Positions 2,373-24,161 of a DNA stretch of 25,592 nt are shown here, in pieces. Below the pieces are notes generated by a model. The model did not search any database and had not been told where the DNA came from. It saw only the letters and a program-made list of their open reading frames with translations. How positions within the stretch are numbered: the first letter of the stretch is position 1; each line of letters opens with the position of its first letter. A program made the position numbers and the translations under genes. The stretch comes from a virus: the IMG/VR virus record IMGVR_UViG_3300017742_000104, positions 1-25,592 of that record. One strand, given 5' to 3'.

Positions 2373-2798
2373 ATGAGTACATTATTCAACGAACACCCGT
2401 TAACACCCTTCGATATTTTATATCGAAATTTTTTCAAAGCAGATGAGCAATTCGCTCCTGCATTAAATTCCAAACAACCACATCCTTTAGACATTTATCA
2501 CGATCCCGAAGGTCTTTACTTTGAGATTGCGTGTACTGGTCTTACTAAAGAAGATATCTCAATTGAGGTAGAATCTGATGTATTAAGGATATCCTATGAT
2601 AAACCAAAAGAAGAAACCCCAACAGATTTGTCAGGGTATATTTATCATGGTTTAAGTAGAAAATCATTCAGTTTAGGATATAAAATTGCACCTAAATTTG
2701 ATTTAACAAAAATTGATGCTGAAATGGAAAATGGATTATTAAAAATCTCAATCCCACTTACCAAAGAAGCTAAACCAAAAGCAATTAAAATTAAGTAA
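2373..2798 (+). CDS. hsp20: Small heat-shock protein, Hsp20/alpha-crystallin family
   Basis: This 141-residue ATP-independent holdase would keep unfolded proteins soluble for later refolding. The alpha-crystallin domain spans about residues 46-132: LDIYHDPEGLYFEIACTGL, the strand VLRISYDKP, the dimerisation-loop region YIYHGLSRKSFSLGY, and the hallmark MENGLLKISIP. The C-terminal IKIK supplies the I-x-I anchor that docks into neighbouring subunits. The N-terminal region SPF/TPFDILYRNFF type (TPFDILYRNFF at 11-21) is typical of IbpA/HspA proteins. Hsp20 genes also occur in T4-like cyanophages. Here it sits just before GroES and GroEL, making a phage chaperone block inside the replication module. 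Confidence 0.93.
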   Translation: MSTLFNEHPLTPFDILYRNFFKADEQFAPALNSKQPHPLDIYHDPEGLYFEIACTGLTKEDISIEVESDVLRISYDKPKEETPTDLSGYIYHGLSRKSFSLGYKIAPKFDLTKIDAEMENGLLKISIPLTKEAKPKAIKIK

Positions 2799-2839
2799 TA
2801 GTTTTAAAAGAAAAACGTGTCCAAGCGCGATTTTATTCG

Positions 2840-2847
2840 TATATTAC
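2840..2847 (+). promoter_or_regulatory. Promoter-like -7 element TATATTAC (P1), before the 106-aa gene and groES-groEL
   Basis: TTCGTATATTAC at 2837-2847 matches the core shared by the stronger promoters in this window. The bases 20 upstream (2816-2819, CGTG) match TTTG poorly, so the call rests on the -7 region and the shared downstream GTTATAAATAA also seen at the site near 5459. A GC-rich patch (CCAAGCGCG) lies in the spacer. It would drive the unknown gene at 2874 together with groES and groEL. Confidence 0.55.
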
Positions 2848-2873
2848 AGTTATAAATAATAAAGAAAAGTTAT

Positions 2874-3194
2874 ATGAGAAACACAATTATTAAGGATCCA
2901 ATCCTAGAGCCTTATCACCTTTCAAAAGATCAATATTGCTATACTTTGATTGAAACTATCACTCCTGATGAGAAAAATATTGGGAAGTTTGGTAAAAAAG
3001 ATAATGGTAATCAAGGTAAAGATTATGAAAAACCTATTGGGTATTACACTAATTTAGCATCAGCACTTAAAAAAATAGCTACCCTTAAATTACACAACCA
3101 ACAGTCTTACCCCACTGTAAAAGAATATATTAAAGAGTGGGAATATCAAAAAGAAGAAATAGCAAAATTATTAACACAATTAGAATTAGTATGA
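2874..3194 (+). CDS. Hypothetical 106-residue phage protein
   Basis: Function unknown. The N-terminal half includes a short strand-rich segment around YCYTLIETITPDEKNIGKFG. The middle holds YYTNLASALKKIATLKL, and the end is a helix (EYIKEWEYQKEEIAKLLTQLEL). This pattern, a query residue pair followed by a helix of the form yyt-l-alkki, recurs in small phage proteins of unknown role, but I cannot name the family with confidence. It begins an operon of this gene, groES and groEL: its stop overlaps the groES start as ATGA and the promoter-like P1 lies just upstream. No transmembrane segment, signal peptide or Cys cluster is visible. Confidence 0.75.
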   Translation: MRNTIIKDPILEPYHLSKDQYCYTLIETITPDEKNIGKFGKKDNGNQGKDYEKPIGYYTNLASALKKIATLKLHNQQSYPTVKEYIKEWEYQKEEIAKLLTQLELV

Positions 3195-3535
3195 ATTTAG
3201 AAGCACTATTTGATGCGGTTATTGTTAAACCGTTAGAAGTAGAGGAAACAATGTATGGAAATATTGTTGTACCTGATCTTGGAAAAGATAAAAATGAAAA
3301 AGGAACAGTTGTAGCTGTAGGCCCTGGTAGACCATCTGTTACAGGTGATCATTTCTTTGAAACTAAAGTTAAAGTTGGAGATGTAGTAGTTTTACCTACT
3401 ATGGGATTCACAAAATTAGAACATGAAGGAGAAGAATATTTTGTAGGACCTGAACAACAAATTTTAGCTAAAATAATAGTTGAATCAACAATTGAAGAAG
3501 TATTAGAACAAACAGAACCATTTAACGAAGATTAA
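3191..3535 (+). CDS. groES: Co-chaperonin GroES
   Basis: This 114-residue protein is the heptameric lid of the chaperonin. The N-terminus LFDAVIVKPLEVEETMYG matches LHDRVIVKRKEVETKSAG of E. coli GroES. Then come the mobile-loop/roof region NIVVPDLGKDKNEKGTVVAVGPG, KVGDVVVLPTMG, and the closing strands EEYFVGPEQQILAKI. The IVL tripeptide that contacts GroEL is represented by IVV. An acidic extension (about 17 residues after AKIIVES) makes it longer than the usual 97 residues. I chose the ATG at 3191, overlapping the previous stop as ATGA, over an in-frame ATG at 3137, because homology begins at MNLEALFD. groEL starts two bases after its stop. Confidence 0.93.
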   Translation: MNLEALFDAVIVKPLEVEETMYGNIVVPDLGKDKNEKGTVVAVGPGRPSVTGDHFFETKVKVGDVVVLPTMGFTKLEHEGEEYFVGPEQQILAKIIVESTIEEVLEQTEPFNED

Positions 3536-3536
3536 A

Positions 3537-5159
3537 ATGCCAGTAGATTTAAGAAAACAAATAGAATTCGGGACTGACGCCCGAAATGAATTAATGGAAG
3601 GAATAAATATCCTTGCAGACTCAGTAGTAAGTACATTAGGACCAAATGGTAGAAATGTATTAATCAGTAATTTCCCAGGAAAACCTATGAGCACAAAAGA
3701 TGGTGTTACAGTAGCTAAAAGTGTTTGTGTGGATGGGAATGTTAAAGAGTTAGGTGTTAGAACAGTAAAGGAAGCAGCTATCAAAACAGCAGATAAGGCT
3801 GGAGATGGTACCACAACCTCTACTCTATTAGCTCGAGAAATGATTAATGCTGGTCTATCTAGTTTACATAATGGAGAAAATGCAGTAGAGATTAAAAGAG
3901 GAATTGACAAAGCAGTTAAAGAAGTTATTAATTGTCTTAGAAAGAATATTTCAGAAGACATTTCTTCTGAAGAACAACTCCAACAAGTAGCAACCATTTC
4001 AGCTAATAATGATATTGAGATTGGTAAATTAATTGCTACTGCAATTGAAAAAGTAGGATCCGATGGAGTAGTTCATATTGAAGAATCAAAATCAGGTGAC
4101 ACATACCTTGAAACAGTAGAAGGTATGCAGTTTGACAGAGGTTATAAATCACACTTTTTTGTTACTGATAATAATACTATGTCATGTAAATTAGATGATT
4201 GTTACGTTTTAGTTGCTAATCATAAATTTACCCAAGTAAAAGAATTACTTCCAATTTTAGAACAAGTTTCAGCAACAAATAAATCATTACTAATTATTGC
4301 TGAAGATATTGATAATGAAGCTCTTGCAACTTTAATTGTAAATAAATCAAGAGGAATTCTAAAAGTAGCTGCTGTTAAAGCTCCTGATTTTGGAGATAGA
4401 AGAAAACTTATTTTAGAAGATATTGCTACTATGACTGGTGGTCAAGTATTTGATACTAGTAAAGGTATGAAACTTGATAAATTTACTTGGGACTGGTTTG
4501 GACAATCCAGAGCAGTAACAGTAACTAAAGAACAAACCACTATTATTGATGGTAAAGGAAATGAAGATGCAATTAATACTAGAATAGAAGAATTGCAAAC
4601 TCAAATTGAAAAATCAACTACCCCATTTGAAACTGAACAACTTCAGAATAGATTAGCTAAAATGGTAGGAGGTGTTTCAATTATTCATGTTGGTGGTTTA
4701 ACAGAAACTGAGTTAAGAGAAAAGAAGGATAGAGTAGATGATGCATTACATGCAACACAAGCTGCATTGGAAGAAGGTATTGTACCTGGAGGTGGAGCTG
4801 CTTTACTTTATGCTAGAAATAAAATTGATGTTTCTACTACTGGTGGGGAAATTGTGTATCAAGCTTGTGGTAAACCATTTGAACAAATCCTCATTAATGC
4901 TGGTTATGACTCTACAGACGCTCAAATGATCGGTAAATACCAATTAGTAGAATCAGGTAATAGTGAATGGGCAGGTTTTAACCTTAAGACAGAAAAAGTA
5001 GTAGATATGAAAAAAGCAGGTATTATTGATCCAACTAAAGTAACACGAACAGCACTTGAAAATGCAGCTGCAGTTGCGGGAACAATACTTCTTACAGAAT
5101 GTGTTATTGTAGAACATCCTGAAAAAAAAGATCCAACACCTGATGAAATACACTATTAA
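3537..5159 (+). CDS. groEL: Chaperonin GroEL, phage-encoded
   Basis: A full-length 540-residue chaperonin that folds proteins in an ATP-driven double ring. The equatorial ATP site is intact: TLGPNGRNV (33-41), KDG with Asp55 (E. coli Asp52) and AGDGTTT with Asp90 (E. coli Asp87). RVDDALHAT in the second equatorial half keeps the catalytic Asp matching E. coli Asp398, followed by GIVPGGGAAL. The apical domain has EGMQFDRGYKSHFF and KELLPILE, so hydrophobic substrate and GroES contacts are kept. The region after LLYARNK is shorter than in E. coli, and the C-terminus (EKKDPTPDEIHY) lacks the GGM repeat tail. It is adjacent to groES, so a complete phage chaperonin system is likely. Phage GroELs are known, for example in Pseudomonas phage EL. 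Confidence 0.97.
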   Translation: MPVDLRKQIEFGTDARNELMEGINILADSVVSTLGPNGRNVLISNFPGKPMSTKDGVTVAKSVCVDGNVKELGVRTVKEAAIKTADKAGDGTTTSTLLAREMINAGLSSLHNGENAVEIKRGIDKAVKEVINCLRKNISEDISSEEQLQQVATISANNDIEIGKLIATAIEKVGSDGVVHIEESKSGDTYLETVEGMQFDRGYKSHFFVTDNNTMSCKLDDCYVLVANHKFTQVKELLPILEQVSATNKSLLIIAEDIDNEALATLIVNKSRGILKVAAVKAPDFGDRRKLILEDIATMTGGQVFDTSKGMKLDKFTWDWFGQSRAVTVTKEQTTIIDGKGNEDAINTRIEELQTQIEKSTTPFETEQLQNRLAKMVGGVSIIHVGGLTETELREKKDRVDDALHATQAALEEGIVPGGGAALLYARNKIDVSTTGGEIVYQACGKPFEQILINAGYDSTDAQMIGKYQLVESGNSEWAGFNLKTEKVVDMKKAGIIDPTKVTRTALENAAAVAGTILLTECVIVEHPEKKDPTPDEIHY

Positions 5160-5434: not shown

Positions 5435-5466
5435 TTTGGATATATTAAATATTATTCGTATATTTA
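5435..5466 (+). promoter_or_regulatory. Promoter P2, TTTG-N20-TATATTTA, before the clamp loader genes
   Basis: TTTG at 5435-5438, a 20-base spacer and TATATTTA at 5459-5466 match the repeated promoter of this window and resemble the Bacteroidota housekeeping consensus. The -7 region is part of TTCGTATATTTAC. The first downstream start is 5489, giving a short leader with A-rich GTTATAAATAAAAAG. It probably drives the gp44-gp62 group. Confidence 0.8.
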
Positions 5467-5488
5467 CGTTATAAATAAAAAGTTATAA

Positions 5489-6397
5489 ATGAAAGATCAC
5501 GGGTTATTAGTTGAGCGTTATAGACCAATTGAATTAGAAAATTATGTTGGTAATGAGCATATTAAAAAAACTATTAAACAATATTTAGGTCAAAATGATA
5601 TTCAAAATCTTGTATTTTATGGACCTGCAGGAACGGGAAAAACAACTCTTGCTAAACTCATTGTTAAAAATCTTGATTGTGAGCATCTTTATATTAATGC
5701 CTCAGATGAACGTGGTATTGAAACGATTAGAGATAAAGTATCAGGATTTGCGTCATCAGCTAGTTTTAAACCACTTAAAGTGGTCATTTTGGATGAAGCT
5801 GATTTTCTTACTATTCAGGCGCAGGCTTCTCTCCGTAATGTCATTGAAACATTTTCGCGTACTACTAGGTTTATCTTAACTTGTAATTATATAGAACGTA
5901 TTATTGATCCATTACAATCTAGATGTCAAACACTTAAAGTTGTTCCTCCATCAAAGCAAGATATTGCTTACCATCTTATGGATGTGTTTAAAAGTGAAGA
6001 AGTTGATTGTAGTGCTGATGATTTAAAAATTATTGTAAATCAATATTACCCTGATATTCGTAAAATGCTTAATACTATCCAACTATCAATTCAAGATAGT
6101 GAAGTAGTAATAGATAAATCAGTACTTGTATCATCTAATTATATGGTTCAAGTATTAAAAGAATTAAAAAATGCTAAACCGAATTGGAGAACTATTAGAC
6201 AAATTATCGCTAATGCGAATGTTAATGATTTTGAGGAATTTTATCGTTATTTGTATGATAATGCTTCTATATACGCAAATGGAAATGAAGGAATGGTTGC
6301 TATTTATATCAACGAGTATAGTTATCAGTCTAATTTCCGTATTGATAAAGAAATTAACATAATGGCTCTTATAGCAAAATTAATAGAATTAAAATGA
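5489..6397 (+). CDS. 44: Clamp loader large subunit, AAA+ ATPase (T4 gp44-like)
   Basis: This 302-residue protein (T4 gp44 has 319) is the ATPase that opens the sliding clamp and loads it on primer-template DNA. It begins with the RFC-type box VERYRPIELENYVGNEHI. Walker A is GPAGTGKT (45-52), Walker B is VVILDEAD (98-105), sensor 1 is in FILTCNYI (128-135) and the arginine-finger motif SRC is at 144-146. The last 100 or so residues form the helical collar. T4 uses four copies with one gp62; the gp62-like partner is two small genes downstream at 6863. The end overlaps the next start as ATGA. Confidence 0.95.
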   Translation: MKDHGLLVERYRPIELENYVGNEHIKKTIKQYLGQNDIQNLVFYGPAGTGKTTLAKLIVKNLDCEHLYINASDERGIETIRDKVSGFASSASFKPLKVVILDEADFLTIQAQASLRNVIETFSRTTRFILTCNYIERIIDPLQSRCQTLKVVPPSKQDIAYHLMDVFKSEEVDCSADDLKIIVNQYYPDIRKMLNTIQLSIQDSEVVIDKSVLVSSNYMVQVLKELKNAKPNWRTIRQIIANANVNDFEEFYRYLYDNASIYANGNEGMVAIYINEYSYQSNFRIDKEINIMALIAKLIELK

Positions 6398-6617: not shown

Positions 6618-6863
6618 ATGAGTGAAAAACAAAACATGCAAATGAATGTTGATTTGAAATCAACAACAGCAATTGAGGGAACTGATGGTAATCATATCTT
6701 TCAACAAGGTGTATTACTTAGAAAGGTATCTAAGTTTGTAGTAGGAGCGGATGAAGACGCTGTAATGCCTATCCCAGTATTTTTTGATACAGTATCTGGT
6801 AAGGTATTAGAATCAACAGTACCTGTAGAGCTTAGAGAAGAATACAAAGATATTACTCTTTAA
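6618..6863 (+). CDS. Hypothetical 81-residue protein between clamp loader genes
   Basis: Function unknown. The N-terminus is polar (MSEKQNMQMNVDLKSTTAIEG) and probably flexible. A strand-rich segment follows (HIFQQGVLLRKVSKFVVG, then MPIPVFFDTVSGKVLES). No membrane segment or metal site is visible. Its stop overlaps the start of the gp62-like gene as TAATG, so the two are likely translationally coupled. Confidence 0.72.
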   Translation: MSEKQNMQMNVDLKSTTAIEGTDGNHIFQQGVLLRKVSKFVVGADEDAVMPIPVFFDTVSGKVLESTVPVELREEYKDITL

Positions 6864-7303
6864 TGTCTCAAATCGAGGTAAAAAACATATTTGATTGGTT
6901 GGAGGAGATAACTTACAAGAAATCTCCTCCATCAAATTTCTCACAAGCTTCGTGGGATAAGTGGAATTCTTACATGATACATAGATACGTATCAATGTAT
7001 ATAGGTTACATTGATGTTGCAAACTATGTACAAAAAATTAACCCACAAAATAAACAACAAATATATTCAATTTACCGAGAAATGATTCCAAAAAAGAAAA
7101 CCTGGCTTAAATACATTAAAAATCAAAATAAAAGAAATTATCAAGAATTAGCTGAATACGTAGCTGAATATTTCCATTGTTCGCTTGGAGAAGCAGATCA
7201 TTATATTGATATTTTAAGACGTGTTGGAGTAGAGAATATCTTATGGGATATGGGAGTTGAACAAAAAGAAATAGATAAATTATTTAAAAAAGCAGAATTA
7301 TGA
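6863..7303 (+). CDS. 62: Clamp loader small subunit (gp62-like)
   Basis: This 146-residue protein would complete the clamp loader with the gp44-like ATPase. It resembles the short gp62 proteins of cyanophages rather than T4 gp62 (187 residues). The shared pattern is an N-terminal FDWLEEITYKK, WNSYMIHRYVSMY (compare FMVNRGLSYF), then IPKKKTWLKYIK (compare IPKRKRFSKW) and AEYFHCSLGEADHYIDIL (compare AKYYGYSNEKAKQVKDL). No Walker motif is present, as expected for this subunit. The start overlaps the previous stop as TAATG, and its own stop overlaps the next gene as ATGA. The family call is from remembered sequence patterns and position. Confidence 0.72.
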   Translation: MSQIEVKNIFDWLEEITYKKSPPSNFSQASWDKWNSYMIHRYVSMYIGYIDVANYVQKINPQNKQQIYSIYREMIPKKKTWLKYIKNQNKRNYQELAEYVAEYFHCSLGEADHYIDILRRVGVENILWDMGVEQKEIDKLFKKAEL

Positions 7304-9078: not shown

Positions 9079-10509
9079 ATGAAAGAAGGTTATATTAAAC
9101 AATCAGATAGGAAAAAAATATTACTCCTAACTGATGATATTAGAGTACATTCAGGTGTTGCTCAAATTGGTAGAGAAATGGTTTTACACACTTCTCATAG
9201 ATATAATTGGGTACAATTAGCAGGTGCTGTAAAACATCCTGATAAAGGTAAAAGAATTGATCTATCAGCTGATAATGATAAAATTGCTGGTATTGATGAT
9301 TCTTCTATTATCTTATACCCAACGGATGGTTATGGAAACCCAGATTTACTAAGAAGTGTTATAGAAACTGAAAAACCAGATGCTATTTTCTTAATTACAG
9401 ATCCAAGATATTTTCAATGGGTGTTTGCAATGGAAAATCAAATAAGAAAAAACATTCCTATTGTTTATCTTAATATTTGGGATAGTATGCCTGCTCCTAT
9501 GTACAATAAAGAATTCTATGAATCATGTGATGCTTTATTTGGGATATCAAAACAAACAAAAGCAATTAATGAAATTGTTTTAGGTGATAAAGCTAAAGAT
9601 AAAGTTATTAAATATGTTCCTCATGGTTTAAATAATAAAATGTTCCGTCCTTTAGATAGAACAGATGAACAATTACAAAAATTTAGAAAGCATTTATCTA
9701 AAGGCAAAGATTGTGATTTTATGTTATTATTTAACTCAAGAAATATTAGGAGAAAATCAATCTCAGATACTATTTTAGCTTGGAAATTATTTTTAGATGA
9801 ATTACCTAAAGAAAAAAGAGAAAAATGTACACTAGTTCTTCATACAGAACCTGTAAGTGAACATGGAACTGATTTAGGAGCAGTTATTGAATATTTCTTT
9901 CCTAATGGTGATGGTAATGTTGTAATATCCGCAGATAAACTTTCAACAGAACAGATGAATATGTTGTATAATTGCGCTGATAGTGTTATTTTGATTTCAT
10001 CAGCTGAAGGATGGGGATTAGCATTAACTGAATCATTATTAACTGGTACTCCGTTTATTGCTAATGTGACAGGTGGAATGCAAGACCAAATGCGTTTTGA
10101 AGATGAAAATGGTGATTGGATTAATTTAGATAAAAATGTTCCTTCAAATCATAGAGGTACCTATACAAAACATGGGAAATGGGTATTACCAACATTCCCA
10201 ACTAATTTATCAATTGTTGGATCCCCAGTTACACCTTACATTTATGATGATAGATGTTCTTTTGAAGATGCTTCTGAGAAAATTATGGAAATGTATAAGA
10301 TGGGAGATGAAGAAAGAAGAGAAAGAGGTAAAGCAGGTATGGAATGGGCTTTATCAGATGAAGCAGGATTTACATCAGAAAAAATGTCTAATCGAATTAT
10401 AGAAGGATTAGATGAGTTATTTGATACATGGACACCTAGAGAAAAATTTGAATTTCTAAAGGATACTGACTTTGAATCAAGAGTTTTAAAACATGAAATA
10501 ATTTATTAA
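9079..10509 (+). CDS. GT-B fold glycosyltransferase (GT4-like), 476 residues
   Basis: It would transfer a sugar from a nucleotide donor to an acceptor that I cannot identify. The N-terminal Rossmann half opens with KKILLLTDDIRVHSGVAQIGREM, where the SGVAQ loop resembles acceptor-side loops of GT4 enzymes. The C-terminal half has the E-x7-E donor motif AEGWGLALTE (Glu310, Glu318) followed by SLLTGTPFIA. VPHGLNNKMFRPL is the usual inter-domain phrase of this class. A C-terminal helical tail follows. The next glycosyltransferase starts immediately after the stop (10510), so the two are tightly linked. It is the first enzyme of the glycan cassette, behind the ribbon-helix-helix gene. Confidence 0.88.
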   Translation: MKEGYIKQSDRKKILLLTDDIRVHSGVAQIGREMVLHTSHRYNWVQLAGAVKHPDKGKRIDLSADNDKIAGIDDSSIILYPTDGYGNPDLLRSVIETEKPDAIFLITDPRYFQWVFAMENQIRKNIPIVYLNIWDSMPAPMYNKEFYESCDALFGISKQTKAINEIVLGDKAKDKVIKYVPHGLNNKMFRPLDRTDEQLQKFRKHLSKGKDCDFMLLFNSRNIRRKSISDTILAWKLFLDELPKEKREKCTLVLHTEPVSEHGTDLGAVIEYFFPNGDGNVVISADKLSTEQMNMLYNCADSVILISSAEGWGLALTESLLTGTPFIANVTGGMQDQMRFEDENGDWINLDKNVPSNHRGTYTKHGKWVLPTFPTNLSIVGSPVTPYIYDDRCSFEDASEKIMEMYKMGDEERRERGKAGMEWALSDEAGFTSEKMSNRIIEGLDELFDTWTPREKFEFLKDTDFESRVLKHEIIY

Positions 10510-16530: not shown

Positions 16531-17598
16531 ATGGAAAAAATAACATTTGTAATACCAAGTAGAAATAATTTAGAATTTTTACAATTAGCTTATAAATCAA
16601 TTCGTAATTTAAATACTAAACATGAAATATTAGTATTAAATGATGCTAGTACAGATGGTACTGAAGAATGGATTAATAACCAAGATGATGAAGATCTGAT
16701 AGTACATCACAATCCAGGTCCTGAAAGAATAGGTATTGTGGGTATGTTTGATAAAGGTATTGAAATGGCTCGTACTGATATTATTATGGCTTATCATGCT
16801 GATATGGTTGCAGGTCCTAATTTAGATGAACATATACTAAAACACCTAAAAAAAGGTACAGTTGTAAGTGCAACTAGAGTAGAACCTCCATTACACCCAG
16901 ATGGTCCTGAAAAAATGTTAGTTGACTTTGGGATTGAAGTAGAAGATTTTAATATAGATAAATTTAATGAATGGGTATTAAATGAATATAAACCCAAACA
17001 TAATAAATTAGTCACTGAAGGTATATTTGCACCCTGGTGTATGTATAAAGAAGATTTTTTAGCAATTGGGGGACATGATGAATTATTTGCCCCACAATCA
17101 AAAGAAGATTCAGATATATTTAATAGGTTTGTTTTAAATGGTTATAAAGTATTGCAGACATGGGAAGGTTTAGTTTACCACTTTACAAGTAGAGGTAGTA
17201 GATTTAATAAACATGCTGGGGGTGCAGCTGGAAAAAATTCAGACGAGTGGTTGCAAACAACTACTACTAATATGAAAAAATTTATTAAAAAATGGGGCAC
17301 ACCTGTACAACATGATGCCTTTATGAAACCTATTATCACCCCAGTATATAATAAATGTCTTGTTATTAATAATACAAACCCACAATTAGAGGAAGCTTTA
17401 GAATGTTGGTTTAATAATGGAGTCGATGTTGAGGTAGAAATAGATGGAAATACATTTACCCAACAGGATTTTCAAATCATTCAACAGCTAAATGCTATTA
17501 TTAAAGATAGTGGTGAAGTTGGTGAATTTAAAATAGGAAATATATTTGTTAGAATCAATAAACTTCAAGAACGTCAAAACGATTTAATTAAAGTCTAA
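16531..17598 (+). CDS. GT2-type glycosyltransferase, 355 residues
   Basis: The opening MEKITFVIPSRNNLEFLQLAYKSI with LVLNDASTDGTEEW is diagnostic of GT2 (GT-A fold) enzymes, DAS being the nucleotide-binding site. The DXD position reads AYHADMV (His89, Ala90, Asp91), an accepted variant. PWCMYKEDFLAIGGHDELFAPQSKEDSDIFNRF is the acceptor/catalytic region with GGHDE and EDSD. About 100 C-terminal residues (YNKCLVINNTNPQLEEALECW onward) form an extra domain of unknown role. It ends the glycan cassette; TAATATTTATAAT begins at its stop codon. Confidence 0.9.
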   Translation: MEKITFVIPSRNNLEFLQLAYKSIRNLNTKHEILVLNDASTDGTEEWINNQDDEDLIVHHNPGPERIGIVGMFDKGIEMARTDIIMAYHADMVAGPNLDEHILKHLKKGTVVSATRVEPPLHPDGPEKMLVDFGIEVEDFNIDKFNEWVLNEYKPKHNKLVTEGIFAPWCMYKEDFLAIGGHDELFAPQSKEDSDIFNRFVLNGYKVLQTWEGLVYHFTSRGSRFNKHAGGAAGKNSDEWLQTTTTNMKKFIKKWGTPVQHDAFMKPIITPVYNKCLVINNTNPQLEEALECWFNNGVDVEVEIDGNTFTQQDFQIIQQLNAIIKDSGEVGEFKIGNIFVRINKLQERQNDLIKV

Positions 17599-17608
17599 TA
17601 TTTATAAT
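17596..17608 (+). promoter_or_regulatory. Motif TAATATTTATAAT (copy 1), candidate phage-specific promoter
   Basis: This 13-base sequence is identical at three intergenic positions of the window, each time starting with the stop codon of the previous gene and followed by a gene start. Here it precedes the gene at 17607/17634. It resembles neither the TTTG-N20-TATATT promoter nor a Shine-Dalgarno site. A role in late or middle transcription is inferred from repetition and position. Confidence 0.5.
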
Positions 17609-17633
17609 GGAACCCCCAAAAACATTGTATATT

Positions 17634-17972
17634 ATGAATAAAGACTTGAAAGTTAATAAAAAAAAACAAGACCCAACATTCATAGAACTGGTTTGGGACG
17701 ATAAACAAGATTTAGTCTCATTAAAAAATGAAATAAAATTCACTGATTTTATATTAAGGGAATCTTACAAATCTGTAAAAAGAGCAATTGAAAATAATCT
17801 TCCCAAAGTTGAATTATTTAACATATATAATTTATGCATCTTAATAGAAGTTAAAAAATCTAATTATGTTTCAATATTAGAAAAAGTAATGGAGTTATAT
17901 GTACTAGAAGAAGATTATGAAGAATGTTCTAAAATTAAAAACCTTATAAAACAATCTAATGAAAAAGTATAA
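17634..17972 (+). CDS. Hypothetical protein with a UVR-motif-like C-terminus, 112 residues
   Basis: Function unknown. The body is helical, and the last stretch EKVMELYVLEEDYEECSKIKNLIKQ resembles the UVR motif of UvrB/UvrC and related proteins (EEDYExAakiRD-I), a short helical hairpin for protein contacts. An in-frame ATG at 17607 would add nine residues, but it lies inside the repeated motif TAATATTTATAAT. If that motif is a promoter, the ATG at 17634 is the better start. Helical content and an internal KKKQDPTFIELVWDDK segment are visible; no membrane segment or metal site is seen. Confidence 0.68.
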   Translation: MNKDLKVNKKKQDPTFIELVWDDKQDLVSLKNEIKFTDFILRESYKSVKRAIENNLPKVELFNIYNLCILIEVKKSNYVSILEKVMELYVLEEDYEECSKIKNLIKQSNEKV

Positions 17973-18117
17973 ATATTTTAATATTAACGACCCAAAAGAA
18001 GAAGCATGTGGTACTTTATATGCCGAAAATATTAATGAAGCTTTTACTATTGCTTGTAGAATGAAAGAACTTACTTTGGATTCTTTTTCAAAAATATTTG
18101 ATGTAAAATTATTATAA
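17959..18117 (+). CDS. Small hypothetical protein, 52 residues
   Basis: The frame starts at the ATG overlapping the end of the previous gene by 14 bases and ends with TAA that overlaps the next ATG as TAATG. The product begins MKKYKYFNINDPKEEACG and ends SKIFDVKLL, with a helix NEAFTIACRMKEL in the middle. The pattern of a strand, then aNINEAFtIA-like helix resembles short phage beta-beta-alpha proteins, but I cannot name a family. Coverage of an otherwise empty 144-base gap and the coupled stop/start favour a real gene. Confidence 0.62.
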   Translation: MKKYKYFNINDPKEEACGTLYAENINEAFTIACRMKELTLDSFSKIFDVKLL

Positions 18118-18515
18118 TGGAAGATTTTGAGGGAAAAAAAGAAATTATTAATCTCTTTAATAGTATTTTAGGTTCTAAGGTATCTATTAAAGATAATATG
18201 GATAAAACTGAAGAAAGTATATTTGTTCATTTTGTAAATGAACTAGATAAAGCTCAAACCGCAGAACATAAATTATTTGAAAATTCAAAAATAGAAATAA
18301 ACCACTATACAGATCCTTTATGGAATGTAATAGAAAATATCTTAAAGTTATTATATGGTGAAGAGCAAGCAGAATTAATTCAATGGTACATTTATGATAG
18401 ATTTAATGCTGATGGGTCAATTGTACCCATAGAAGATGAATCAGGAAAAAAATATATTTTTACAAACCCAGAAGATCTTTGGAGTTATATGAATTACAGG
18501 TATAGTAAAAAATAA
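18117..18515 (+). CDS. Hypothetical protein, 132 residues
   Basis: Function unknown. The product is acidic and mostly helical, with KKEIINLFNSILGSKVSIKDN at the start, then WNVIENILKLLYGEEQAELIQWYIYDRF (about 74-102), and a C-terminal strand-like YIFTNPEDLWSYMNYRYSKK. A leading Glu/Lys-rich helix and WYIYDRF suggest a compact fold rather than a linker. Similar proteins occur in T4-type phage genomes, judging by the EEQAELIqWYiYdR phrase, but no role is known to me. It ends at promoter P3. Confidence 0.72.
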   Translation: MEDFEGKKEIINLFNSILGSKVSIKDNMDKTEESIFVHFVNELDKAQTAEHKLFENSKIEINHYTDPLWNVIENILKLLYGEEQAELIQWYIYDRFNADGSIVPIEDESGKKYIFTNPEDLWSYMNYRYSKK

Positions 18516-18547
18516 TTTGTAATTTTTAATTCTTTTCTGTATATTTA
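18516..18547 (+). promoter_or_regulatory. Promoter P3, TTTG-N20-TATATTTA, before the DksA/TraR-type gene
   Basis: TTTG at 18516-18519, 20 bases, TATATTTA at 18540-18547 (within TTCTGTATATTTAC). The start codon at 18573 lies 25 bases downstream, after an AT-rich leader. Spacing is identical to the other strong sites in the window. Confidence 0.8.
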
Positions 18548-18572
18548 CATTAGTATATAATAATTATAGAAT

Positions 18573-18827
18573 ATGAAATGTGTTAAATGTAACATAGAAA
18601 TACACCCCCTTAGAATAAAAGCACTACCAAATACTAAAGTATGTGTAGATTGTTCTACTGCTGGGGCATACAGAGCTGTAACTACAACTCATGGAACTGG
18701 AGATCATACTTGGAATGATATTAAAGTTATGACACCAGAACAATTCTCCCAATATCAAAATACAAACACGAGTGATGATGAAGACACTCATACAATTACT
18801 TTTGGTATAGAAAATACAAAAAAGTAA
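18573..18827 (+). CDS. DksA/TraR-type zinc finger protein, 84 residues
   Basis: The first 27 residues carry a four-cysteine zinc site, CVKC (Cys3, Cys6) and CVDC (Cys24, Cys27), with the family phrase IEIHPLRIKALPNTKVCVDC. This matches the C-terminal zinc finger of DksA and TraR, which act in the RNA polymerase secondary channel. Here the finger is at the very N-terminus and the long coiled coil of DksA is missing, so a direct DksA function is doubtful. The rest is a polar, acidic tail (NTNTSDDEDTHTITFG). Possible roles are RNA polymerase modulation or general protein contact. Confidence 0.72.
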   Translation: MKCVKCNIEIHPLRIKALPNTKVCVDCSTAGAYRAVTTTHGTGDHTWNDIKVMTPEQFSQYQNTNTSDDEDTHTITFGIENTKK

Positions 18828-18831
18828 TTAT

Positions 18832-19467
18832 ATGCCTAAAGCAAAACCACTTAGTAAAGAACAAATATTAGCAGCTATATCTCAAACAAGATCAAATAGA
18901 GCAGCTGCTAGGTATTTAAATGTATCTTATCCCCATTATAAAAAATGGGCTGAATTATATGATTCAGCAGAACCAGGTTATAAAAGTTTATTTGAACAGC
19001 ATTTAAACCCTTCAGGTAAAGGTATACCTAAGTTTTTAAGCAATAAAGGTAAAGAACCCGCATTATTAGATATAATTGAGGGTAGAGTAGATGCTTCTTC
19101 TTTTTCTCCTGATAAAATTAAGTATAGACTTGTAAGTGAGGGATATTTATTAGAAGAATGCTCATCATGTGGTTTCCACGAACGCAGGGTAATTGATTAT
19201 AAAATCCCTCTATTGTTACATTTTAAGGATAAAAATAAAAAAAATTATCGTAAAGATAATATTGAATTTTTATGTTACAATTGTTATTATCTTTCAGTTG
19301 GAGATATTTTTAATGAAAAACAAATTGAAGGTATAGAAGATCATAAACCTGTAAGTTCAGGTGAAGTAGATTGGGAATTAGATCCTTATACAGAACAACG
19401 GTTAAAGGAATTAGGATTAGGAGATAATGACAAGGATGATGATATGGATATTGTAGCTTATTTATGA
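18832..19467 (+). CDS. HTH plus degenerate HNH-like zinc domain protein, 211 residues
   Basis: Residues 8-32 look like a helix-turn-helix (KEQILAAISQTRSNRAAARYL, then NVSYPHYKKW). Residues 110-152 hold CSSC (Cys110, Cys113), LLLHF (His130), NYRKDNIEF and CYNC (Cys148, Cys151), which parallels the CxxC...LHH.dg..nnr.eNL..LCpNCH pattern of HNH endonucleases. The second His of the HH pair is Phe and the final zinc-ligand His is Tyr152, so nuclease activity is doubtful. It could be a DNA-binding regulator derived from a homing-type endonuclease. The acidic, hydrophobic C-terminus DDDMDIVAYL is also notable. The stop overlaps the next gene as ATGA. Confidence 0.65.
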   Translation: MPKAKPLSKEQILAAISQTRSNRAAARYLNVSYPHYKKWAELYDSAEPGYKSLFEQHLNPSGKGIPKFLSNKGKEPALLDIIEGRVDASSFSPDKIKYRLVSEGYLLEECSSCGFHERRVIDYKIPLLLHFKDKNKKNYRKDNIEFLCYNCYYLSVGDIFNEKQIEGIEDHKPVSSGEVDWELDPYTEQRLKELGLGDNDKDDDMDIVAYL

Positions 19468-19640
19468 AAAAGAAAACAAGAAATATAAAACGTTCTAAGC
19501 ATGATAAGCTTGTTAAAGATTATGACAAGCAAAAAGAAAAGCATTTAGAAAGATTAGCTACTAAGATGTTAAAAAATGAAGAACAATCTCAAAAGCTAAA
19601 AAATAAAAACATCAATTCTGATTTTTTAGATTTATTTTGA
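19464..19640 (+). CDS. Small basic helical protein with clamp-binding-like tail, 58 residues
   Basis: The product begins MKKKTRNIKRSKHDKLVKDY, a strongly basic helix, continues as a coiled-coil-like helix (EKHLERLATKMLKNEEQSQK), and ends NSDFLDLF. From memory, T4 late transcription factors end similarly, gp33 with NTLDFLL and gp55 with SLDFLYE near its end; those tails bind the sliding clamp. The protein is shorter than T4 gp33 (about 112 residues), and no other similarity is evident. The start overlaps the previous stop as ATGA. A role as a clamp-bound transcription co-activator is a hypothesis only. Confidence 0.65.
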   Translation: MKKKTRNIKRSKHDKLVKDYDKQKEKHLERLATKMLKNEEQSQKLKNKNINSDFLDLF

Positions 19641-19645
19641 ATTTT

Positions 19646-19660
19646 ATTGGGAATCCCAAT
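19646..19660. repeat. Perfect inverted repeat ATTGGGAATCCCAAT
   Basis: A 15-base sequence whose 7-base arms are perfect reverse complements around one central A. It lies between the 58-residue gene and the transglycosylase gene and covers the -33 position of the P4 promoter. It may be a regulator site or a terminator stem; the following T content (AGTTGTTTTG) is interrupted, so termination is uncertain. Confidence 0.5.
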
Positions 19661-19670
19661 AGTTGTTTTG

Positions 19671-19678
19671 TATATTAC
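19671..19678 (+). promoter_or_regulatory. Promoter-like -7 element TATATTAC (P4), before the transglycosylase gene
   Basis: TTTTGTATATTACTAAC matches the -7 core of the window's promoters. The bases 20 upstream are TTGG, one register off TTTG (ATTG with a 21-base spacer). The start codon at 19700 is 21 bases downstream. The palindrome at 19646-19660 overlaps the upstream element. Confidence 0.6.
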
Positions 19679-19699
19679 TAACATATAAAATAATAAACA

Positions 19700-20221
19700 A
19701 TGAAACATTTATTACTATTATTAATGGTACCTTTTACATTTAGTGGTGAAGCCGAATTAATCCATTATTCACCATCATTGGATTTAACCACACTTCCTGA
19801 TGAACAACCTAAAATAGAAGTTATTGAAGAAAAAGACCACACAGATTATTTACTAGAAGCTTTAATACAAGTTGAGAGTCAAGGAAATGAAAATGCTGTG
19901 GGGGATAAACATTTATCTCGACCTTCAATTGGTGTACTACAAATTAGACCCATTATGGTTAGAGAAGTAAATCGCATACTTAAAAAACATAAAGTAGAGA
20001 AAAAATATACTTTAGAAGATAGATATAGTAGAGAAAAAAGTATTGAAATGTTTTATATTTGGCAAGCATTCCATCATGCAGATGATAGTGATGAAGTAAT
20101 TGCTAGATGTTGGAATGGAGGATCAAAAGGATGGAAAAGAAAATCAACACTATATTACTGGAGTAAAGTACAAATAGAAATCAATAATTTAAAATTACAA
20201 AAATTAGCTAATAATGAGTAA
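19700..20221 (+). CDS. Secreted lytic transglycosylase-like (SLT/lysozyme fold) protein
   Basis: Residues 1-16 (MKHLLLLLMVPFTFSG) form a signal peptide, so the protein should reach the periplasm. The catalytic domain starts near residue 50: LLEALIQVESQGNENAVGD with Glu59 as the probable catalytic acid, then SIGVLQIRPIMVREVNRIL and CWNGGSKGW. These match the E-S-x-G-N, G-x-x-Q-I and R-x-N-G-G motifs of SLT-type enzymes, which cleave peptidoglycan. The usual GLMQ phrase is GVLQ. It could be an export-dependent endolysin or help virion assembly or DNA entry. No holin-like gene is adjacent. The stop overlaps a 47-residue gene by eight bases. Confidence 0.82.
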   Translation: MKHLLLLLMVPFTFSGEAELIHYSPSLDLTTLPDEQPKIEVIEEKDHTDYLLEALIQVESQGNENAVGDKHLSRPSIGVLQIRPIMVREVNRILKKHKVEKKYTLEDRYSREKSIEMFYIWQAFHHADDSDEVIARCWNGGSKGWKRKSTLYYWSKVQIEINNLKLQKLANNE

Positions 20222-20357
20222 AAATTCAAGTAAGCAAACAGTACAAGCATCTCAAGAATGGGTTGTATGGATGACTAAAAGAGGGGTAATTAAAAAGAAA
20301 AAACAAAAAGTTAATCCTTTTGCTTTTGATATAAACCAGCATGACTATAGAAGGTAA
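20214..20357 (+). CDS. Small hypothetical protein, 47 residues
   Basis: The frame starts overlapping the end of the transglycosylase gene and ends inside the next small gene. The product begins MSKNSSKQTVQASQEWVVWM and has a basic stretch RGVIKKKKQKVNPFAFD. Such short, Lys-rich proteins are common between phage genes. Its reality rests on the tight overlaps and the lack of any other reading for this stretch. Confidence 0.5.
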   Translation: MSKNSSKQTVQASQEWVVWMTKRGVIKKKKQKVNPFAFDINQHDYRR

Positions 20358-20502
20358 ACCATCTCCATATGATATTTTAGATACGTTTGACGAGGATTTA
20401 TGGGTAGAACTCATATTAAAAAGCCCCAATACTATTAAAATTATATGTCTTATGTTAAGTTTAGATTTACAAATAGAAAAAGAATATAATGAAAAACAAT
20501 AA
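20341..20502 (+). CDS. Small hypothetical protein, 53 residues
   Basis: The frame overlaps the previous small gene by 17 bases and the kinase gene by 14. The product begins MTIEGKPSPYDILDTFDEDL, with an acidic helical region and a hydrophobic segment PNTIKIICLMLSLDL. That segment is too short to be a secure membrane span. Function unknown. Confidence 0.55.
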   Translation: MTIEGKPSPYDILDTFDEDLWVELILKSPNTIKIICLMLSLDLQIEKEYNEKQ

Positions 20503-21262
20503 CATACTAATCATTGGAGAACATTGTATAGACAAATTTGAATATTGCATTTCAAATCGTTTATCTCCTGAAGCACCCGTCCCAGTACTTAATCCTTATT
20601 CTGTTAGAATAAATGAAGGTATGGCTGGAAATACCAAACAAAATGTTAAGGCATTAGTTGAAACTAAATTTTGGGATATTAATTCTATTTTCCCTAAAGA
20701 TAAAAATACAGGGTATGATTTAACAATAACTAAAACACGTTATATAGAAGAAAAATCAAACCATATGTTTTTTAGGGTTGATGAAGGAGAAGATGATATT
20801 GAACCTTTTAAATGGGGAATAGATACTGATGTATTAATTGGTCAAGCTGATATAGTAATTGTAAGTGATTATGATAAAGGATTTTTAAGAAATCTAGATT
20901 TAATAGAAATTGCTAATAAATCAACTTTATCTATTTTGGATAGTAAACGTAAACTTACTAATGATATTATTAAGAACTTTGACTTTGTAAAATTAAATAA
21001 ATCAGAAAGTAATAATAATCCTAATCTAACAACTGATAATATTATAACAACCTTAGGTTCATTAGGTGCTGAATACCAAGACACAATTTACCCATCTCCA
21101 AACCCTCAACAAACAATAGATGTAAGTGGAGCTGGGGATACATTCACAGCTGCTTTTATAATAAAATATTATGAAACTAAAGATGTAGATTTATCTATTG
21201 AATTTGCTAATGAGAAATCTGCAGAAGTAGTAAGTAAACGTGGAGTAGTGGTTCCTTCTTAA
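20489..21262 (+). CDS. PfkB-family sugar kinase resembling the HldE/RfaE heptose kinase domain
   Basis: A 257-residue kinase resembling the N-terminal D-beta-D-heptose-7-phosphate kinase domain of E. coli HldE. Matches are ILIIGEHCIDKFEYCISNRLSP (compare GDVMLDRY) with SPEAPVPV, NEGMAGNTKQNVKAL (compare GGAANVAMN), FFRVDEG (compare LIRLDFEEG), SDYDKGFL (compare SDYAKGAL), ILDSKRK, and the catalytic IDVSGAGDTF (Gly214-Asp217). It is shorter than the 318-residue HldE kinase domain and lacks the nucleotidyltransferase half. Heptose-1-phosphate or another sugar phosphate may be the product. It sits 3 kb from the glycan cassette, so it may feed that pathway. Confidence 0.85.
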   Translation: MKNNNILIIGEHCIDKFEYCISNRLSPEAPVPVLNPYSVRINEGMAGNTKQNVKALVETKFWDINSIFPKDKNTGYDLTITKTRYIEEKSNHMFFRVDEGEDDIEPFKWGIDTDVLIGQADIVIVSDYDKGFLRNLDLIEIANKSTLSILDSKRKLTNDIIKNFDFVKLNKSESNNNPNLTTDNIITTLGSLGAEYQDTIYPSPNPQQTIDVSGAGDTFTAAFIIKYYETKDVDLSIEFANEKSAEVVSKRGVVVPS

Positions 21263-21272
21263 TATTTATAAT
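21260..21272 (+). promoter_or_regulatory. Motif TAATATTTATAAT (copy 2), candidate phage-specific promoter
   Basis: Identical to the copies at 17596 and 23482. It begins at the stop codon of the kinase gene and ends 11 bases before the ATG at 21284. The gene downstream looks like a virion protein, which would fit a late promoter. Confidence 0.5.
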
Positions 21273-21283
21273 AAAATCATAAA

Positions 21284-21640
21284 ATGGCGTCATACACAGC
21301 AGATCAATTATACGGAGCAGGAACACCAATAGAAGCATTAACTGCTGCAACTACTTATACATTTACACTCAGCACACCAGTATCATCGGGTTCTGCTTAT
21401 TTTACTATAGAAACAGTTAGAAATGCTAATGGGTTTTATGATACACAACCTTCAAATTCATTAGGTTCATATGCTTCATTTACTAGTATAGATGAGGATA
21501 CATTAATAACATCTTCATTTATATCTTCAGTGGTGGTTCCCCAAGGTGGAGGTTCATATACATTTACTCCAACAGCTAATGTTGCAATTAGTTCTTCATT
21601 TCTGAAAACAACAGGAGGAGTTACTTTAACAATTTCATAG
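21284..21640 (+). CDS. Ser/Thr-rich beta-strand protein, possible virion component, 118 residues
   Basis: Function unknown. The product is rich in Ser, Thr, Gly, Ala and aromatic residues and almost free of Lys and Arg: MASYTADQLYGAGTP, TYTFTLSTPVSSGSAYFTIE, PQGGGSYTFTPTANVAISSS. Alternating small and aromatic residues suggest a beta-sandwich such as a head decoration or tail fibre-related protein. Its composition differs from the Lys/Glu-rich proteins around it. It is preceded by TAATATTTATAAT and followed by the strong promoter P5. No signal peptide or metal site is seen. Confidence 0.72.
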   Translation: MASYTADQLYGAGTPIEALTAATTYTFTLSTPVSSGSAYFTIETVRNANGFYDTQPSNSLGSYASFTSIDEDTLITSSFISSVVVPQGGGSYTFTPTANVAISSSFLKTTGGVTLTIS

Positions 21641-21646
21641 TAAATA

Positions 21647-21678
21647 TTTGGTTTCCTAAGGGAGTGTTCGTATATTCA
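21647..21678 (+). promoter_or_regulatory. Promoter P5, TTTG-N20-TATATTCA, before the SWIM-nuclease group
   Basis: TTTG at 21647-21650, 20 bases, TATATTCA at 21671-21678 within GTTCGTATATTCA. The spacer contains a weak 5-base stem (TTTCC-TAA-GGGAG). The leader ends ATAAATAAAGGTTATG at the start codon. It closely resembles P7 (TAAATATTTGG...GTTCGTATATTCA). Confidence 0.85.
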
Positions 21679-21695
21679 AGGTATAAATAAAGGTT

Positions 21696-22139
21696 ATGTT
21701 ATATAAATTTCAAAATTTAAATAAGTACGGTACATTAAGAACCCGTATTATTCACTCCCCTGAAGGTACTCCATTTAGTTTTAATCCTAAAGGGTTTGGT
21801 AAATTTGTTAATGTTCAAACATTTAAGTATGAATATAAACACCAAGTATTACCTCCTTCACTTTTCACAGATCAAGATGGTCAAAAATGGATTGTACCTA
21901 CTTGGCAAAAAGTTCACTCAGAAACAACATTAAAAGATATTAATTGGATTAAACCAAAACCTAAAAAAGTAAATGTTGAAAAACATGAATTCAAATTTGA
22001 ATCAAAATCAGACCCAGGTCATTTTTATAATGTTACTGTAAAAGATAATAAAGTCGATTGTACGTGTTCGGGAAAATGGAGAGCTAAGGATAGACAGTGT
22101 CGTCATATGAAAGATGTTAAAAAACAATTAGGTATATGA
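21696..22139 (+). CDS. SWIM zinc-finger-like protein, 147 residues
   Basis: The C-terminus has the SWIM pattern CxC-xn-CxH: Cys122, Cys124, Cys135 and His137, in VDCTCSGKWRAKDRQCRHM, preceded by the strand-rich FYNVTVKDNK. SWIM domains bind DNA or proteins in MuDR transposases, Rad51 accessory complexes and bacterial SNF2 helicase partners. The rest of the protein has aromatic-rich strands (PEGTPFSFNPKGFGKF, WIVPTWQKVHSETT) and no known catalytic motif. The stop overlaps the nuclease-like gene as ATGA. A DNA-binding role is likely, its purpose unknown. Confidence 0.78.
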   Translation: MLYKFQNLNKYGTLRTRIIHSPEGTPFSFNPKGFGKFVNVQTFKYEYKHQVLPPSLFTDQDGQKWIVPTWQKVHSETTLKDINWIKPKPKKVNVEKHEFKFESKSDPGHFYNVTVKDNKVDCTCSGKWRAKDRQCRHMKDVKKQLGI

Positions 22140-22651
22140 GTAAAATAACATATGAGTTAACAATTAAAGGATTACCTTACGCTATTAGTAAAGAAAGACA
22201 AGAAGATCCTGAATTTAAAAGAAATATATTATTAGCGTTATTCCCGGAGTGTGCTGAATCTCAAGCTATAGTTATTGCTGAGAAAAAATTTGGCCAAAAA
22301 TTTTATCCCATGCCCTATAATTGGAAAGGTTGGGATATAATCTCGGAAGATAAAAGTATAAAAATTGAAGTAAAACAAACTTCAGTTATGGGGACATCAT
22401 CAGATTTATCAATTAATGCTACGTGGTCTAAAAAAGATTTATGTACTCATATTATGATATTTGATTTCTTCAATCCTACAATATCCATATCAATAATACC
22501 ACATGATGAGTTTTTTGCTAGTAAATTTCATGGTAATGCAAAATTATGGAGGTGGAATTCAGATTATAAAGAAAAAACATATTCAACCAGATATGGATGG
22601 AATAAAAAAGAAAATGTGGTATTGTTTTTAAAACATAAATTTGAAGAATGA
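22136..22651 (+). CDS. PD-(D/E)XK nuclease-like protein, 171 residues
   Basis: The core reads GWDIISEDKSIKIEVKQTS, which places Asp67, Glu78 and Lys80 in the D-x10-E-x-K order of restriction-type nucleases. The preceding helix (AIVIAEKKFGQKFYPMP) and the following strand THIMIFDFFNPTISISIIP also fit. The protein has a long basic C-terminal end (KEKTYSTRYGWNKKEN) likely to touch DNA. It lies between a SWIM protein and a HExxH protein with ATGA overlaps on both sides. It could cut host or competing phage DNA; a structural or repair role is also possible. Confidence 0.7.
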   Translation: MSKITYELTIKGLPYAISKERQEDPEFKRNILLALFPECAESQAIVIAEKKFGQKFYPMPYNWKGWDIISEDKSIKIEVKQTSVMGTSSDLSINATWSKKDLCTHIMIFDFFNPTISISIIPHDEFFASKFHGNAKLWRWNSDYKEKTYSTRYGWNKKENVVLFLKHKFEE

Positions 22652-23055
22652 ATAAAAAAGAAGTAAAACAAATAATAAATAAAATTTATCCTAAAATAAA
22701 AAATTATTATGGTAAATCTGAATATAGTGACCATTTTCCATCAATAAAATACCATCATAATATCTATGCTAGAATTACTGGAGAAGAGAAGATGGATGGT
22801 GAAGTATCACCTGCAGCAGAATTTGAAAGAGAAACTAATACCATTTGGATTTATTATCCTGAAGCAATAGATGAAAAATGGGTTATCCAAACTCTACTCC
22901 ACGAATATACTCATTATCTTCAAGATGCAAATGAGATGAAAAGGTTGTATGATGAAGAAGGATATGAATATGATAATCATCCTTTTGAATTAGAAGCAAT
23001 TGAAGAAGAATCAAATTGGGAAAAGTTTAAAAATTTTAAATTAATATTACAATAA
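22648..23055 (+). CDS. HExxH zincin-like protein, 135 residues
   Basis: LLHEYTHYLQDANEM holds the HExxH zinc motif (His85, Glu86, His89), and HPFELEAIEEESNW downstream offers a candidate third ligand (Glu114 or Glu116) in an ELEA helix, as in ImmA/IrrE and SprT-like small metallopeptidases. The short size suggests a minimal peptidase domain. Possible substrates include a phage regulator or host protein. It forms a coupled row with the SWIM and nuclease genes through ATGA overlap and is followed by a new gene with an A-rich GTTATG start context. Confidence 0.72.
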   Translation: MNKKEVKQIINKIYPKIKNYYGKSEYSDHFPSIKYHHNIYARITGEEKMDGEVSPAAEFERETNTIWIYYPEAIDEKWVIQTLLHEYTHYLQDANEMKRLYDEEGYEYDNHPFELEAIEEESNWEKFKNFKLILQ

Positions 23056-23064
23056 ATAAAAGTT

Positions 23065-23484
23065 ATGGCAGAAAATAGAGGTAGACCAAAAGAAACACCA
23101 ATTGAAATTAAACAAAAATGGGTTGAAGAACACCATGAAGTTCCATCTAAACCAGAATTAGGATGGTCATCTAAATGGTATTATGATAGAAGTAAAACCC
23201 AATTTGGTCCTTATAAAGTAGAAAACACACCTCCTAAAGGATGGAAGGCACCTAAAATTAAACCTGAAAAAGGTAAAGCATATGCCAAACAACCTGTAGT
23301 AATGGTTTGGAAAACGTCTAATCGTTCGAATGCTAAAGTAAAAATGAAAGTTTGGAAGAATGAAAATATTGATTACATCCTATCAGCTGATAAATTACCT
23401 GGTGTTCCATCTACAGCAATAGTGCTAGAAATTGGGGTAGGTGCAAGTTTTATTGAAAAATATCAATCTAAGTATAATCTGTAA
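23065..23484 (+). CDS. Hypothetical protein, 139 residues, basic
   Basis: Function unknown. The sequence is Lys/Pro/Trp-rich: RGRPKETPIEIKQKWVEEHH, GWSSKWYYDRSKTQFGPYKV, NTPPKGWKAPKIKPEKGKA. A GRPK segment near the start recalls AT-hook-like minor groove binders but is single and so weak evidence. The C-terminal half (VVMVWKTSNRSNAKVKMKVW, then TAIVLEIGVGASFIE) is strand-rich. The start sits in the AAAAGTTATG context typical of this region. Confidence 0.7.
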   Translation: MAENRGRPKETPIEIKQKWVEEHHEVPSKPELGWSSKWYYDRSKTQFGPYKVENTPPKGWKAPKIKPEKGKAYAKQPVVMVWKTSNRSNAKVKMKVWKNENIDYILSADKLPGVPSTAIVLEIGVGASFIEKYQSKYNL

Positions 23485-23494
23485 TATTTATAAT
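23482..23494 (+). promoter_or_regulatory. Motif TAATATTTATAAT (copy 3), candidate phage-specific promoter
   Basis: Third identical copy, beginning at the stop codon of the preceding gene. The next start is at 23517, 22 bases downstream. See copies at 17596 and 21260. Confidence 0.5.
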
Positions 23495-23516: not shown

Positions 23517-24161
23517 ATGGCAACAAGAGCACAAGTAGCATATATTGATGAAGACATGAGTGAAATCATCACTACTTATAACCATTATGATGGCTACCCA
23601 GAAAATTTAGGTAAAGCATTATTAAACCATTATGATAGTGATGAAAAAGCAAAATATATAGCTAGTTCAGGTTATATTTCATATATTGATCCTGAAACTG
23701 GAGATGTAGATGCAACACATAATGAATCACCAACTATCATTAGAGATGGAGATGTAGATACATTATTAAGAAAATTTTATGATCACAGTAATGGATCAGG
23801 AGCTGATTATGTTTATCTATATGCAGGTCAATGGATTGATTCTTCAATGTACCCAATGACACAAGATAAATTTGTGGCTATGATGATGGATGAGTTAAGA
23901 ATGACAACTCCTATGTATGATGAAGAAGAAATGATGGAAGAAGGATATGAAGCTAAATGGCAAAAATATCTTTCTGAAGCAAAAATTAATGTAGTGGCAG
24001 TAGCTAAAGATGCTTTAAAAGATAAGCCTAATTTAAGCATTTATTTAGATTCTTTAGAAAATGATGTTCGTTTAAATGGTAGTGAATCATATGAAACTTA
24101 CACATCTGATGATTGGGAAGAAGATTTTGAAAATTACATGGCTGATAAAATGGATATGTAA
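23517..24161 (+). CDS. Conserved phage/bacterial protein of unknown function, 214 residues
   Basis: The N-terminus MATRAQVAYIDEDMSEIITT and YNHYDGYPENLGKALLNHY matches a recurring phage and bacterial family with the pattern RAtI.v....g.....Y.H.DGYP...G..L. followed by a GYiSyI segment. No function is established to my knowledge. The C-terminal half is acidic with Met-rich helices (MMMDELRMTTPMYDEEEMMEEGY) and a final acidic helix (DDWEEDFENYMADKMDM). No membrane or metal site is evident. Its stop overlaps the next gene as TAATG. It lies behind a TAATATTTATAAT motif. Confidence 0.75.
   Translation: MATRAQVAYIDEDMSEIITTYNHYDGYPENLGKALLNHYDSDEKAKYIASSGYISYIDPETGDVDATHNESPTIIRDGDVDTLLRKFYDHSNGSGADYVYLYAGQWIDSSMYPMTQDKFVAMMMDELRMTTPMYDEEEMMEEGYEAKWQKYLSEAKINVVAVAKDALKDKPNLSIYLDSLENDVRLNGSESYETYTSDDWEEDFENYMADKMDM

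Follow-up and report, generated by a model that had tools for sequence, protein, structure and literature searches.

A TATTTAT box as a probable late promoter of T4-like Bacteroidetes phages

Late promoters of T4-like phages and the repeated element

The late promoters of phage T4 are single TATAAATA boxes with no conservation at -35, which are read by gp55 and activated by gp33 together with the gp45 sliding clamp (PMC2988020, PMC7892883). Those of KVP40, 44RR and S-PM2 are like the T4 promoters, and Aeh1 carries a/gC at positions -13/-12 (PMC2988020). Bacteroidetes host promoters follow the consensus TTTG/TAnnTTTG (PMC6847099, PMC9723704). Here we analyse a 13-base element, TAATATTTATAAT, in a virus record of 25,592 nucleotides (IMGVR_UViG_3300017742_000104; this whole 25.6-kb stretch is referred to as the window), whose closest annotated relative is the 160-kb Flavobacterium phage immuto, with T4-like gp20 and gp23. 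The element very probably serves one clade of T4-like Bacteroidetes phages as a late promoter and consists of one -10-type box, TATTTAT-AWWAAA, and no -35. As in T4, the box is single, composed of A and T only and located upstream of the head and tail genes in a T4-like phage, and the -35 region is not conserved; the coding-strand consensus differs, being TATTTAT-AWWAAA here and TATAAATA in T4. The element would thus behave as a T4 late promoter does, with a box of divergent sequence. Single-box late promoters have also been defined in silico in the T4 relatives KVP40, 44RR, S-PM2 and Aeh1, but their boxes equal or approach the T4 consensus, whereas the middle of the box differs here. In the top-ranked literature results the bare core, TATTTATA, never appears as a phage promoter, only as the T4 template strand, and the literature search turned up no transcriptome of a flavobacteriophage that covers early and late genes.

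In the window TAATATTTATAAT occurs exactly three times, always on the + strand and never on the - strand. Copy 1 (17596-17608, core TATTTAT at 17599-17605) overlaps the stop codon of a glycosyltransferase gene (16531-17598), copy 2 lies at 21260-21272 (core 21263-21269) and copy 3 at 23482-23494 (core 23485-23491), the last scoring 13.9 bits with a matrix built from immuto sites. In every copy, the TAA stop of the preceding open reading frame (ORF; 16531-17598, 20489-21262 and 23065-23484) makes up the initial three bases, and the distance from the motif to the next start codon is 11 nucleotides (nt) for ATG 21284, 22 nt for ATG 23517 and 25 nt if ATG 17634 starts the first gene. An earlier, sequence-only reading of this DNA had reported three identical 13-mers at 17596, 21260 and 23482, each beginning at a stop codon just 5' of a start codon, and this description is confirmed. 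It had also called chance unlikely. That holds for TAATATTTATAAT itself, with a mean of 0.013 copies and never three across 300 trinucleotide-preserving simulations of the window, but not for 13-mers at large: 17% of the simulated windows contain some 13-mer at three or more copies, and the real window has five others. For this reason the window by itself is suggestive, not conclusive. Bare TATTTATA has no strand bias there (5:5). The support for a real motif that we regard as decisive comes from relatives.

Gene class, anatomy and orientation in related phages

The immuto genome allows the element to be compared between gene classes, with "early" and "late" standing for map position and annotation, not for measured expression. 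In an unbiased count, TATTTAT is the top 7-mer of the gaps in the late region, occurring forward in 23 of 50 and in reverse in 5, and it is found in just one of 33 early-cluster gaps (late versus early, Fisher p 1.2e-5). The core precedes the genes for the TerL terminase, gp20 portal, PhoH, tail sheath, tube/tail completion, baseplate hub, tape measure and tail spike proteins, among others. The early cluster instead has a host-type promoter, GTTG-N-TATATTTAG, in 15 of 33 gaps, compared with 0 of 50 late ones (Fisher p 8.5e-8). As a positive control, the same word count applied to T4 late genes recovers TATAAAT and TATAAATA; the counting method therefore detects known late promoters. In a related contig (L087, 28868-35400, corresponding to immuto 67665-74200) the early cluster consists of small genes, many of which lie behind a near-identical promoter and leader, GTTG...TATATTTAGGTATCAATAATTAAAAC.

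An alignment of 107 sites contains no conserved -35; conservation is confined to (A)TATTTAT and the A/T-rich AWWAAA behind it. The core letters of this alignment were fixed by the search pattern, so that the unbiased evidence for the core is the 7-mer count in the immuto gaps. The conserved unit is the core plus AWWAAA and not the entire 13-mer, the leading TAA being merely the previous stop codon. The coding-strand box of T4 is rare at these positions: forward TATAAATA occurs in 3 of 50 immuto late gaps, against 16 of 50 for TATTTATA (the Aeh1 variant of the box was not counted separately).

Conservation of the element extends to loci whose surroundings have changed. Before the homologues of gene 21284, TATATTTATAATAAAA is kept in three contigs (L004, L005 and L006); the upstream sequence of the window and L006 is unrelated to that of L004 and L005, yet the element is retained. 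TATTTAT lies within 70 nt after glycosyltransferase homologues in 25 of 58 distinct relatives, and the element follows the same glycosyltransferase gene in immuto and in L007, L008, L011 and L012. Many of these loci retain TATTTATAATAAA although the next gene differs, and the element is usually absent where the next gene begins right at the glycosyltransferase stop. The exact 12-mer TATTTATAATAA is present in immuto in 7 coding-strand copies and 1 reverse copy (0 for a reversed-letter control) and in contig G001 in 14 coding-strand copies and none in reverse. It is absent from contigs G011, G012, G014, G017 and G018, of which G017 contains degenerate forms of the motif.

With a scoring matrix trained on 18 immuto sites, intergenic matches on the same strand as the downstream gene outnumber those on the opposite strand by 19:1 in G001, 11:2 in G009, 28:3 in G015, 5:0 in G004 and 10:1 in G017. 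In the pooled set of intergenic matches, 99 are oriented with the downstream gene and 13 against it. The genes behind the matches in G001 and G009 include tail tube, head-tail adaptor and tail fibre families. The sequence-only reading had proposed a phage-specific, perhaps late, promoter of divergent form, which would be contradicted if the motif were missing before structural genes elsewhere or if transcription from it ran leftward. In relatives the element does precede head and tail genes and, as judged by sequence orientation, it faces the downstream gene, which supports the proposal.

A candidate sigma factor for the TATTTAT box

The most likely reader of the box is a protein annotated as "hypothetical" in immuto, immuto26A_153 (78174-78872), which has a marginal gp55 profile match (a weak one to phrog_234). 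Its family comprises at least 600 matching stretches and is represented in 8 of 10 related records. The gp55 family phrog_12791 gave no match, nor did direct PHROG and Pfam scans, and a hidden Markov model search against PDB sequences found no sigma match. The AlphaFold model used is that of a homologue 91% identical to immuto26A_153 (pLDDT 80.7). Nearly all of the 50 rows displayed by VIA-align for this model are sigma factors, and T4 gp55 from the open complex (7d7c_F) is among the tied top rows (114 residues, 3.3 A) with a Z of 9.8 that, for a helical domain, falls below the tool's safe level. With this caution, the family is predicted to have a sigma region 2 fold. It differs from T4 gp55 in being larger (232 residues), in having an extra C-terminal domain and in its marginal sequence similarity. 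When taken alone, the C-terminal 95 residues form a confident helical fold with only weak, mixed helix-turn-helix matches in a sigma-4 comparison. The family is probably the reader of the TATTTAT box, as a divergent gp55-like sigma factor. A T4 review asks why a fused late sigma does not exist (PMC2988020). We offer only as a speculation, and an unlikely one, that such a protein is found here, with a gp55-like sigma-2 and a C-terminal helix-turn-helix domain doing the job of T4 gp55 and gp33 and paired with TATTTAT; if true, it would answer the question raised in that review.

In an alignment of the family (A1), residues 119-128, which fall in the linker joining the two domains, are conserved as an acidic-hydrophobic stretch, GSFxDMEESYE. 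By analogy with the C-terminus of gp55, this stretch is possibly a sliding-clamp binding motif. In contig L004 the sigma homologue (9471-10164) is split into two frames at about 9540.

How might the element work? It occupies the short intervals ahead of late genes, most of them for virion proteins, and would be read in the same direction as they are. On the model of T4, the host RNA polymerase with a phage sigma factor, most likely of the immuto26A_153 family with its divergent gp55-like sigma-2, would melt the box, and RNA would begin about 12 nt past the first T of the box, perhaps with the assistance of the phage sliding clamp. Further likenesses to T4 are the T4-type clamp loaders encoded in the window and the predicted sigma-2-fold protein, which matches the gp55 structure; no gp33 was identified, though no search aimed at it was made. 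With a spacing as in T4, the predicted starts are at about 17611, 21275 and 23497, giving leaders of about 9 nt for copy 2 and about 20 nt for copy 3. A start near 17611 would mean that ATG 17634, and not 17607, begins the first gene.

Besides immuto, only two records of the phage collection contain a relative of the candidate. One is Microcystis phage Mel-JY01, whose host is a cyanobacterium; its genome has clear Shine-Dalgarno sites, and its sigma relative is 36% identical. Among the 7-mers ahead of the genes of its structural region TATTTAT ranks first (12 against 3 in reverse), and in several genes it lies about 30-45 nt before the ATG, upstream of a separate GGAG. The presence of both the box and the sigma relative in this phage therefore points to an association of the box with the sigma family, not with the host. 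The second record is the 484-kb jumbo phage LR756508.

Several observations weigh against a late promoter read by this family. LR756508 has a sigma relative 40% identical but no motif in the 40 kb around the sigma gene, which limits the claim that the box follows the sigma factor. A comparison of immuto26A_153 with the gp55 profile is weak (E 0.006, probability 6%) and Foldseek alone, while ranking sigma factors first, does so without significance; the low Z of the VIA alignment belongs here as well. In the immuto middle region (<62 kb) TATTTAT occurs forward in 10 of 52 gaps and in reverse in 5, with an unclear strand bias, and the class specificity is thus not absolute. No copy lies directly upstream of the immuto major capsid gene. 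In the window itself, most genes belong to replication and glycosylation.

Alternative readings, gene setting and meaning

It is improbable that the element is instead a translation-initiation or mRNA-leader signal, A/U-rich and suited to Bacteroidetes ribosomes that do not use Shine-Dalgarno pairing. Its constant proximity to a start codon fits such a signal, as does the finding that translation in Flavobacterium is initiated better when the sequence around the start is A-rich (PMC6847099). The distance from the core to the ATG ranges from about 2 to more than 40 nt, however, and the early-cluster genes lack the element although the same ribosomes translate them. The Mel-JY01 box, being separate from and 5' of the Shine-Dalgarno site, likewise argues against a translation signal. 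A different sequence, the leader A(A)AGGTTATG / AAAAGTTATG / ATAAGTTATG, recurs right at start codons in the window (21690, 24540, 24713 and 24939, as well as 23058, 25293 and 25479), and is a possible translation-initiation context of this phage.

Slightly less credible still is a host-type promoter read by the unmodified primary sigma factor of Bacteroidetes. These phages do use the TTTG/TAnnTTTG type, namely in the early cluster and ahead of some genes in the window. One such promoter, TTTGG...TATATTTA (5435-5467, +), stands before the gp44 gene at 5489, another (21647-21679, +) before gene 21696, and further ones at 18516, 24496, 24887 and 25229 before genes 18573, 24547, 24945 and 25300; all six have TTTG or TTTGG followed by TATATTYA, and most have TTCG ahead. 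Two promoter classes therefore stand side by side in the window. The host-type promoters at 21647, 24887 and 25229 are long repeats with about 70% similarity to one another. A subset of the late elements, moreover, reads TATATTTAT, which is near TAnnTTTG. Against a host-type promoter, the element as a whole has neither the -33 TTG nor the TTTG of the -7 box, and the TA two bases ahead of the core is not conserved. Genuine host boxes in the same genomes are different (TATATTTAG and TATATTCA, plus TTG) and serve another gene class, and the element occurs in a Microcystis phage too.

Could the element be read on the other strand? The sequence-only reading had pointed out that the complement holds the T4 late box, and TATAAATA is indeed part of the reverse complement, ATTATAAATATTA. 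A minus-strand T4-type late promoter giving leftward antisense transcripts is nevertheless very improbable. The orientation is consistent with the downstream gene in the pooled intergenic matches, the conserved AWWAAA tail beyond TATTTATA sits on the gene-facing side, and leftward RNA would be antisense to the upstream genes. Since immuto late genes seldom have forward TATAAATA ahead of them, its presence on the complement is incidental and not a backward T4 promoter. Finally, a chance repeat in AT-rich DNA, which the 13-mers of the simulated windows and the merely mild enrichment of the motif with up to two mismatches (23 copies, 15 expected) might suggest, is refuted by the comparative data, as position, strand and gene class are kept across independent phages and TAATATTTATAAT itself reached three copies in 0 of 300 simulations, and deserves next to no credence.

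Behind copy 1 lies a gene at 17634-17972 (+). Its mechanical ORF start is ATG 17607, but this codon overlaps the element and would precede the predicted start site at about 17611, so that ATG 17634 is favoured; relatives L007, L011 and L012 have no upstream ATG, and their ATG lies about 33-35 nt past the core. The gene behind copy 2 (21284-21640, +) encodes 118 residues of no known family, a putative virion protein according to the sequence-only reading, with homologues 61-63% identical in three contigs, no match in the PHROG search and a Pfam match to Cadherin_5 only below the cut-off. Copy 3 is followed by a gene (23517-24161, +) for a 214-residue member of a phage family of unknown function (phrog_1987, E 1.7e-14), for which no relatives were found in IMG/VR.

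Elsewhere the window contains T4-type clamp loaders and chaperonins, a cluster of glycosylation genes and a polymerase in split ORFs. The large clamp loader subunit, of the T4 gp44 type, is encoded at 5489-6397 (+; phrog_168, E 4e-76) and the small one, of the gp62 type, at 6863-7303 (+; phrog_225, E 1.9e-12). The ORF at 1546-2280 (+) is a probable gp45-like sliding clamp on account of its position in the replication cassette, where it adjoins the DNA polymerase ORFs; it gives a weak match to an unknown phrog and nothing else. The polymerase is encoded by two ORFs, 1-612 and 609-1541, with a four-base overlap that could reflect a split gene, a frameshift or an assembly error. Genes for Hsp20-like, GroES-like and GroEL-like chaperones lie within the T4-like replication cassette (2373-5159), and immuto also has GroES and GroEL.

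Together with the host-type promoters, the TATTTAT box would amount to a concrete code of early and late promoters for the T4-like phages that infect Flavobacterium-type bacteria, a group of phages that is widespread but experimentally little studied, and a conserved "hypothetical" protein can be named as their probable late sigma factor. The late box sequence of T4 would then have changed in this T4-like branch. Temporal gene classes could then be predicted from the sequences of many metagenomic phage genomes, and these phages may serve as a second model, with hosts from a different phylum, in which to study the evolution of clamp-coupled late transcription.

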